A DNA stretch of 64,000 nt, taken from Sulfurimonas sp. HSL3-2. GTDB lineage: Bacteria > Campylobacterota > Campylobacteria > Campylobacterales > Sulfurimonadaceae. This document shows positions 58,789-61,426 of this stretch, piece by piece. Location: contig NZ_CP147917.1 of assembly GCF_039645965.1 (NCBI RefSeq), positions 310,001-374,000 of the forward strand. Reading direction: 5' to 3'. Position 1 is the stretch's first letter. Each line of letters opens with the position of its first letter. The translations under genes were made by a program, and so were the position numbers. The notes beneath the pieces are model-generated. The model had not been told where the DNA came from. It was given only the letters and a program-made list of their open reading frames with translations, and did not search any database.

Positions 58789-58803
58789 AACAAAGGAGAT
58801 GTG

Positions 58804-59229
58804 ATGAGAGTAGTATGTCCACACTGCTTAGCAGTAAATAATGTTCCCGTAAAAGAGTCGTATAAAAAAGCAAACTGCGGAAAATGCAAAGGTTCTCTGC
58901 TTGATTCAAAACCTGCGAGTCTGACAGCAACTACTTTCGATGAAGCTGTCGTAAACAGCGATATTCCAGTTATCGTAGATTTCTGGGCTCCTTGGTGCGG
59001 ACCATGTAAGATGATGGCTCCGACATTTGAAAAAGTAGCAGAGCAGTTTCCGTTAAAGATGTTCTTTGCAAAAGTAAATACGGAGAATGAACAATTGTTA
59101 GGTTCTAGATTCGGTATAAGAAGTATTCCGACTCTGGTAATATTTAAAGGCGGCAAAGAGGTACACAGAGTATCGGGCGCTTTAGATGAGAGAAGTCTGA
59201 GAGACCTCGCTTCACAATTCAGCTCTTAA
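58804..59229 (+). CDS. Thioredoxin with N-terminal zinc ribbon (Trx2/TrxC type)
   Basis: 141 residues. The N-terminus has paired cysteines (Cys5, Cys8, Cys25, Cys28; CPHC and CGKC), a zinc-binding ribbon as in TrxC, then a thioredoxin fold with WCGPC at 64-68. It would reduce cytoplasmic disulphides and respond to oxidative stress. ATG 58804 has AAAGGAGAT upstream; the earlier GTG is less likely. recQ begins 11 bases after its stop if the ATT start is right. Confidence 0.92.
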   Translation: MRVVCPHCLAVNNVPVKESYKKANCGKCKGSLLDSKPASLTATTFDEAVVNSDIPVIVDFWAPWCGPCKMMAPTFEKVAEQFPLKMFFAKVNTENEQLLGSRFGIRSIPTLVIFKGGKEVHRVSGALDERSLRDLASQFSS

Positions 59230-59240
59230 AGGTCAAAAGT

Positions 59241-61016
59241 ATTAAACACAAGATTTTAAAATCCTATTTTGGTTATGACTCTTTCCGTCCGCTTCAAGAA
59301 GAAGCGATAGACGCGATACTGGAGCATAAAGACCTGCTTATGATCCTGCCGACCGGCGGCGGAAAATCTTTATGTTATCAGCTTCCCTCTCTTATGATGG
59401 ATGGCGTGACCATCGTCGTCTCTCCACTTTTGGCACTAATGTACGATCAGGTTATGGCCCTTAAGACCAACGGCGTGAAAGCGGAGATGATCTCCTCTAT
59501 GCAAAATGAAGAGGAGATACATAGCATTCGTCAAAGACTGATGGATTCCGATATAAAACTATTGTATGTCGCTCCTGAACGTTTTGCATCTTTTGAATTT
59601 GTAAACTTTTTAAAATCCATAAAGATCAACTTTTTTGTCATAGATGAGGCTCACTGTGTCAGTGAATGGGGACATGAATTTCGTATCGATTACAGAAAAC
59701 TCGATCTTCTGCGTGAGAATTTCCCTACAACTTCCATAGCTGCATTTACCGCAACGGCGACTCCAAGAGTTGCGGCGGATATCAAACATGCCCTTATGCT
59801 TCATGAGCCTGTAGAGGTGCGTGGAAAGATATTTAGAAAAAATCTTCACATTACAGTCGAGCCCCGCATAAAAGACGGCAAGAAACAGCTGTTAGAGTTT
59901 TTGGCCAATTTTAAAAACGAGAGCGGGATCGTCTATGCGTTTTCCCGTAAGCAGACTGAGGCTTTGGCTGTCTTTTTACATACGAACGGCATAAAAGCAC
60001 GACCTTTTCACGCGGGACTTCCTACTCATGTAAAGGAAGACACTTTTAAAGCTTTTGTCCGTGATGAGATACAGGTGGTAGTGGCTACCATCGCTTTTGG
60101 GATGGGGATAGACAAGAGCAATATCCGTTTTGTAGTACATATGAACCTGCCAAAGACGATAGAGAACTACTATCAGGAGATCGGGCGTGCAGGGCGTGAC
60201 GGGTTAGACAGCGAAGTGTTTTTACTTTACAGCGGGAGCGATGTCGTGATGCAGCGCGAGTTTATCGAGCAGCTTGAAGAATCGCCGTACAAGCAAAACG
60301 CCTTTAACAAGATCGAGCAGATATCAAGATATGCGACGATGGAAGAGTGCCGTCACAACTACATAGCGACCTATTTTGAAGATGATATAGAGAACTGTAA
60401 AGATGCCTGCGATAACTGTACGGCACCCGAGAGTAAACAGTCAGAGATCACGGTCGATGCACAGAAACTTCTCTCTGCTATATACAGGACAAACCAGACA
60501 TTCGGGCAGGCATACGTCATTGATGTTCTTCGCGGCAGCACTCTGCAGAAGATCTTGGACAATGGTCACGATAAACTTTCAGTTTATGGTATCGGTGAAG
60601 AGAAGTCACGTGCTTACTGGGAGAGAGTGGTCGAAAGGCTGATGGAACTCAGTGCGGTAAAAAGAGGCGAGTTCCGTGCTTTGATCCTTGACAGTGCCGG
60701 GATGAAGATACTCAAAAATGAGTTGAAGGTCTTTATCAAAGAGGAGCGACTCAACCTAAAACCGAAAAAAGAGTTTGTCGTTCATAAAGACGAGGATGTC
60801 GACAGCGAAGTGTTTGAACAGCTCAGAGCGCTTCGCGGGGCAATAGCAAAAGCCGAAGACAAGCCGGCATACATTATATTTGGCGACAAGACACTCAAGG
60901 AGATGGCAAAAGCGCTTCCAAAGACAAAAGAGGAGATGCTTGAGGTAAACGGAGTTGGAGAGGTAAAGTTCGAACGTTACGGAGAGCAGTTCTTGGAGTT
61001 GTGTCAGACGTTGTGA
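59241..61016 (+). CDS. recQ: ATP-dependent DNA helicase RecQ, apparent ATT start
   Basis: About 591 residues. Motif 0 FRPLQEEAI (Gln19), Walker A TGGGKS (38-43), the DEAH box in FFVIDEAHCVSEWGHEF, motif VI QEIGRAGRDG, the zinc-binding Cys cluster (CRHNYIATYFEDDIENC, then CDNC), a winged-helix segment and a C-terminal HRDC domain are present. RecQ unwinds recombination intermediates. No ATG, GTG or TTG exists in frame between the upstream stop at 59187 and ATG 59340, and that ATG would remove motif 0. ATT 59241 has AAGG eight bases upstream and gives the family N-terminus IKHKILKSYFGYDSFRPLQ. Confidence 0.88.
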   Translation: MKHKILKSYFGYDSFRPLQEEAIDAILEHKDLLMILPTGGGKSLCYQLPSLMMDGVTIVVSPLLALMYDQVMALKTNGVKAEMISSMQNEEEIHSIRQRLMDSDIKLLYVAPERFASFEFVNFLKSIKINFFVIDEAHCVSEWGHEFRIDYRKLDLLRENFPTTSIAAFTATATPRVAADIKHALMLHEPVEVRGKIFRKNLHITVEPRIKDGKKQLLEFLANFKNESGIVYAFSRKQTEALAVFLHTNGIKARPFHAGLPTHVKEDTFKAFVRDEIQVVVATIAFGMGIDKSNIRFVVHMNLPKTIENYYQEIGRAGRDGLDSEVFLLYSGSDVVMQREFIEQLEESPYKQNAFNKIEQISRYATMEECRHNYIATYFEDDIENCKDACDNCTAPESKQSEITVDAQKLLSAIYRTNQTFGQAYVIDVLRGSTLQKILDNGHDKLSVYGIGEEKSRAYWERVVERLMELSAVKRGEFRALILDSAGMKILKNELKVFIKEERLNLKPKKEFVVHKDEDVDSEVFEQLRALRGAIAKAEDKPAYIIFGDKTLKEMAKALPKTKEEMLEVNGVGEVKFERYGEQFLELCQTL

Positions 61017-61105: not shown

Positions 61106-61426
61106 TTATGAAAACATGATCTCATAAGGTCTTTTGATCTCATTGATTACTTCGCCCACACTCATATGGCGGCTTTTTCTTAAGAACTCTCTGCCGTCTA
61201 AAAACACTAAGACGGTAGGGATGGCAAACACACTGTAGTGTGCTGCGATGTCTGCGTCTGTCGAAACGTCGATGCTGACGATCTCAAATGTGTCGAAGTT
61301 ATCACTTATGGCTTCTAAAAGCTTTGGCTTTAAAGCGTGGCATACATTACATGTAGGCGCACTGAAGTAAAGCATCACTGCCGGATTTTCTTTTATGATA
61401 TTATCTATGGATTCTATATTTTGCAT
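61106..61426 (-). CDS. Thioredoxin-like protein (CNVC active site)
   Basis: 106 residues with a single thioredoxin fold and no signal peptide. The active site is FSAPTCNVCHALKP (Cys26, Cys29) instead of WCGPC, and the cis-Pro is present in FAIPTVLVF. A cytoplasmic disulphide reductase or redox sensor is likely; the target is unknown. Its start is only 27 bases from the divergent OMPLA gene start, so promoters must overlap. Confidence 0.85.
   Translation of the reverse strand: MQNIESIDNIIKENPAVMLYFSAPTCNVCHALKPKLLEAISDNFDTFEIVSIDVSTDADIAAHYSVFAIPTVLVFLDGREFLRKSRHMSVGEVINEIKRPYEIMFS

Follow-up and report, generated by a model that had tools for sequence, protein, structure and literature searches.

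Natural starts at AUU, AUC or AUA (AUH; ATH in DNA) are known for very few genes. Binns and Masters are said to have found in 2002 that the AUU start of E. coli pcnB limits its translation. As an enzyme of nucleic acids that is limited by an AUU start, pcnB comes closest in likely logic to the recQ gene described here, although it is another gene in another phylum, and in this recQ AUC is the commonest codon and the AUH starts fall into separate groups. The gene of IF3, infC, resembles recQ as a conserved gene that starts at an AUH codon (AUU, AUC or AUA) preceded by a Shine-Dalgarno sequence (PMC5472188, PMC13009471); IF3, however, represses its own synthesis, and recQ has no such loop. A conserved AUH start with a Shine-Dalgarno sequence is also described for S. 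aureus ccpN (AUA) and cvfC1 (AUU), where the Shine-Dalgarno sequence is extended and lower expression was demonstrated with reporters, while that of recQ is modest (PMC13009471). The GTC start of Streptomyces sigR is likewise conserved, non-canonical, missed by gene finders and repressed by IF3, but it differs from that of recQ in the codon (GUC) and in belonging to a regulatory gene (PMC5472188). Gene finders are described as relying on ATG, GTG and TTG (PMC5472188), and the disfavouring of AUH initiation by IF3 is established for other genes (PMC5472188, PMC13009471, PMC10158994).

The AUH starts reported below are thus of a known kind (infC, pcnB, ccpN), while the literature searched did not reveal their occurrence in recQ, their recurrence across the lineage or the companion genes. 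The search, conducted mostly at listing level, gave no non-canonical recQ start, none in this bacterial group and no report of recurrent AUH use. The recQ gene offers a large comparative record in which AUG, UUG, GUG, AUC, AUU and AUA replace one another at one position, and one state mostly comes with a Shine-Dalgarno sequence that the other lacks. With this record the selection of weak starts for protein scarcity becomes directly testable.

The window, a stretch of 64,000 nucleotides (positions 310,001 to 374,000 of contig NZ_CP147917.1), comes from strain HSL3-2 of the Sulfurimonadaceae, a lineage of sulfur-oxidising bacteria; the genome of this strain is a single 2.24-Mb contig with one close recQ. 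An earlier note on this DNA had described a frame of recQ, the gene of a DNA-repair helicase, without a canonical start codon, and reading of the frame confirmed this description. The frame is preceded by TGA at 59187-59189, is open from 59190 on the forward strand and encodes motif 0 (FGYDSFRPLQ, 59268-59297, forward strand), which aligned with the solved RecQ structure 1oyw. No ATG, GTG or TTG occurs in it from 59190 until the ATG at 59340-59342 (forward strand), which lies downstream of motif 0, just before Walker A and 33 codons past the ATT at 59241-59243 (forward strand) that is taken here as the start. The coding sequence read from this ATT comprises 591 codons and a stop (59241-61016, forward strand). 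Upstream lies the thioredoxin gene trxA (thioredoxin 2-like, 58801-59229, forward strand). A Shine-Dalgarno-like core, AAAGG (59228-59232, forward strand), is separated from the ATT by an 8-nt spacer, and its AAGG (59229-59232) overlaps the trxA stop codon TAA (59227-59229). A second thioredoxin-like gene, named by reading its sequence, is situated just 3' of recQ in convergent orientation (61106-61426, reverse strand).

In a profile search RecQ read from the ATT reached 701.7 bits with TIGR01389 (recQ), for which the curated cut-off is 640.2 bits, and Pfam identified the DEAD, Helicase_C, zinc-binding, RQC and HRDC domains, so that the protein represents a complete RecQ. Residues 4-589 corresponded to positions 3-589 of the 591 positions of TIGR01389. 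As residue 4 matches position 3, this equivalog profile opens one residue after the ATT, in agreement with the placement of the ATT at the expected RecQ N-terminus in the earlier note. A start at ATG 59340, with the codons upstream of it untranslated, would make use of the first in-frame canonical codon, and RecQ cut to this position still gave 656.2 bits, which is above the cut-off. Such a start is nevertheless very unlikely. It lowers the profile score by 45 bits and removes motif 0, which stands at the RecQ N-terminus only if translation starts before 59340, and the stretch that would be lost is present in solved RecQ structures, including 1oyw. The codons concerned (59244-59339, forward strand) are conserved and under purifying selection. 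For codons +1 to +30 downstream of the ATH, pN/pS was 0.156 in the genus of the window (6 of 8 rows) and 0.160 in the Sulfurimonas AUH rows, compared to 0.145 and 0.188, respectively, for the 200 codons that follow. The similarity of these values to those of the rest of the gene indicates that these codons are translated.

A recQ gene was present in each of the 8 genomes of the window's genus (g1). The start codon was ATT in the window, ATC at the same codon in five genomes and ATC one codon earlier in two, the latter having ACA at the aligned codon. In the frames of L007 and L008 a TTG lies 19-20 codons ahead of motif 0, while the other g1 frames have no upstream canonical codon. The ATT is one base away from ATG, and the earlier note had considered a point mutation of an ATG or a sequencing error. 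Both suggestions were contradicted by the relatives. The closest of them, with 91% protein identity, have ATC at this codon, ATC stands at this codon or the one before it in all seven other members of the genus, and ATG at the aligned codon occurs in none of the 8 genomes; it was found in part of another genus, Sulfurimonas (g16). As recQ is also intact and conserved, an error or a recent mutation that cripples the gene is extremely improbable, unless the assemblies of the genus all contain a like error.

A fusion of thioredoxin and RecQ through frameshifting or stop readthrough would be compatible with the overlap of 40 bases between the end of trxA and the open recQ frame in the window. Among relatives, however, the distance from the trxA stop to the recQ start is 9, 10 or 11 nt, so that all three frames occur and the relation is not kept, and in Sulfurimonas trxA is replaced upstream of recQ by another gene, the C-terminus of which presumably resembles riboflavin synthase. 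A fusion is therefore hardly credible. Upstream of several AUH recQ genes there is no long open reading frame that ends at the start, and coupling to an upstream gene is thus not required.

In the family, 189 of 228 genomes gave a recQ match at an E value of 1e-100, and 110 loci from these were examined. Motif 0 was recognisable in 107; L061, L068 and L095, without a motif-0 match, were left out. The start was counted as AUH in 41 of the 107 rows for the tree and in 37 under a stricter rule. In L109, L112, L121 and L150, which are AUH in the tree count, a TTG precedes motif 0 by 14-16 codons; the start class of L140 was left ambiguous. Sulfurimonas, the largest genus of the family, has two diverged recQ clades of 18 and 63 rows (loci L077, L079 and L083-L162). 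All starts in the 18-row clade are canonical, and AUH is confined to the other clade, with 33 starts at ATC, ATT or ATA, 29 canonical starts (ATG, TTG or GTG) and one ambiguous start. In sister species of the 63-row clade the canonical codon is mostly found at the same position as the ATH codon. Some AUH frames open just 1-3 codons ahead of the ATH, and no other start fits there.

On a quick LG+G4 tree of the 107 recQ rows the start class changed at least 7 times, with 6 changes forced by well-supported branches, compared to a mean of 32.8 after shuffling. A tree that held all AUH rows together was rejected (p-AU 3e-66). Lineages with TTG, GTG or ATG part the genus of the window from the AUH clade of Sulfurimonas, so that the sequence tree contains at least two separate AUH groups, with swaps between AUH and AUG, UUG or GUG at one codon. 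Because the AUH groups are parted by canonical lineages, separate gains of the AUH start are the simplest reading, although the change counts themselves cannot tell gain from loss. Outside the family, an ATH codon as the sole option at this position was found in 0 of 42 usable loci of an order sample of 44 (L180 and L187 had no match). In genome G312, from another family of the order, recQ (L220) may start at an ATA that lies closer to motif 0 by one codon and corresponds to an ATG in its genus-mate L219.

An AGG was present upstream in 8 of 8 AUH rows of g1 and in 27 of 33 AUH rows of the Sulfurimonas clade, compared to only 1 of the 29 canonical rows of that clade. The median Shine-Dalgarno hybridisation energies were -3.7 kcal/mol for AUH and 0.3 kcal/mol for canonical starts (p 8e-9, with kinship ignored). 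When the link between Shine-Dalgarno sequence and start class was assessed on independent pairs, on average 2.7 of 5 agreed and 0.0 opposed it, which are too few for significance. The lack of a core is by itself nothing unusual, as in this genome the core preceded the first canonical codon in 666 of 1,364 mechanically defined open reading frames of at least 150 aa. The local RNA energy from -25 to +25 had medians of -1.7 in 41 AUH rows and -2.9 in 45 canonical rows. The choice of the start codon differed from that of elongator isoleucine codons in the same genes. The 39 ATH start codons comprised 28 ATC, 8 ATT and 3 ATA, whereas the 1,813 elongator codons comprised 579 ATC, 508 ATT and 726 ATA (chi-square p 4e-7, kinship of the rows ignored). 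The second codon was AAA in 38 of the 39 AUH rows.

The sequence comparisons establish the Shine-Dalgarno pattern and the location of the start, which is conserved and recurrent. The proposal that ATT 59241 is the start, with AAGG at the right distance, was supported by the relatives, the profile position, the Shine-Dalgarno spacing and the codon-level conservation. We consider it likely that the normal initiator tRNA starts recQ translation at AUU 59241, which is selected by the AAGG, that the AUH codon is kept in the lineage and that RecQ is thereby held low. The AAGG at the end of trxA would select the AUU, at which the ordinary initiator tRNA would initiate with a third-base mismatch, and formyl-methionine would be expected as the first residue. 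As regards an altered initiator tRNA, the tRNA types listed for the genome included tRNA-Met(CAT) and two tRNA-Ile(GAT), with nothing odd by type. Poor pairing of the third base together with the disfavour of IF3 would set RecQ synthesis low, and the RecQ level might respond to IF3 or to the growth state. The AUH start probably serves as a means of keeping RecQ scarce, and that the codon regulates, as the earlier note put it for such starts in general, is what we infer. In all 8 genomes of the genus infC appears to start with TTG and not with an AUH codon, and the classical IF3 feedback is thus not apparent in this genus. Lineages with canonical starts may reach a similarly low rate by the absence of a Shine-Dalgarno sequence; in our reading, a weak codon in some lineages and an absent Shine-Dalgarno sequence in others would keep recQ translation low. 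Weaker GUG and UUG starts are described as being offset by stronger Shine-Dalgarno sequences (PMC5622118). The findings also suggest that RecQ and other entries from this family in the databases may be truncated.

The AUU start could also be real but neutral, the need for RecQ being so small that cells tolerate a weak start, with no selection for low dosage. The variation of the start type within Sulfurimonas would fit this explanation, as would the lack of significance of the Shine-Dalgarno link on independent pairs. AUH persists in two separate groups, however, ATC is favoured over ATT and ATA against codon usage, and in the published reconstruction AUG changed to AUU only once in 61,358 starts (PMC5622118). 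A neutral start thus appears possible but rather unlikely, and a start selected for a low RecQ level is preferred. Initiation at a lower rate may take place at another recQ codon.

A coding-potential scan covered 1,664,000 bases of this genome and 1,323 open reading frames with coding-like bodies. It searched for coding-like sequence upstream of the first canonical start that reached a Shine-Dalgarno-preceded ATH without an adjoining canonical start. Only 2 of the 1,323 frames had this structure, namely recQ and a gene with an Lnb_N domain, which speaks against a chance occurrence in recQ. A third row (1523655-1524179) had such an ATC, but with ATG directly after it. As a codon-class control, the upstream codons of open reading frames without a Shine-Dalgarno-preceded canonical start were analysed in the same 1.664 Mb. 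A Shine-Dalgarno core preceded 14 of 297 ATH codons, compared to 101 of 2,271 and 20 of 583 codons in two other groups, and AUH starts are accordingly uncommon in this genome. By reading of these 14 cases, long conserved coding sequence before the first canonical start was seen only in recQ and the Lnb_N gene.

The latter is an envelope-type gene with Lnb_N, DUF7843 and DUF7840 domains that lies outside the window (G000 566346-568160, corresponding to L207:12346-14160) and has ATC AAA after TAGGA. Its N-terminus reads as a signal peptide, and the gene was found in 135 of the 228 family genomes. In 30 loci the first Shine-Dalgarno-preceded candidate was ATC in 14, ATT in 15 and ATG in one, so that 29 of 30 were AUH. 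Neighbouring ATH codons compete in L252, L256 and L259, L260 has a TTG directly after, and a canonical codon is nearby in L244, L253, L262, L264 and L267.

In a 400-kb scan of the Sulfurimonas genome G102 (G102:C1:1740001-2140000), recQ, meant as the positive control, was not flagged; in the G102 recQ a TTG precedes motif 0 by 16 codons. This region contained a transposase with DDE_Tnp_1_assoc and DDE_Tnp_1 domains (L332:774-1952 and 7 more copies), which we take to be ISAs1-like and which has ATC AAA after AAGGAG. AUU starts are also known from IS elements, as in the case of IS911 orfB. The Lnb_N gene and the transposase, two unrelated genes, indicate that AUC and AUU starts recur in the family, while the codon-class control shows that they are not general. 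It is conceivable, but doubtful, that the Sulfurimonadaceae possess a small set of genes (recQ, the Lnb_N envelope protein, the IS transposase and perhaps more) with AUC or AUU as a regular, selected start; in that case DNA repair, envelope and transposition would be dosed jointly by the level or state of IF3, with IF3 not controlling itself in the usual manner. The 8 transposase copies within the 400 kb of G102 are near-identical. Three diverged loci also have ATC AAA after AAGGAG, one of them with internal stops, and in three homologues that are more distant ATG AAA stands at roughly this position.
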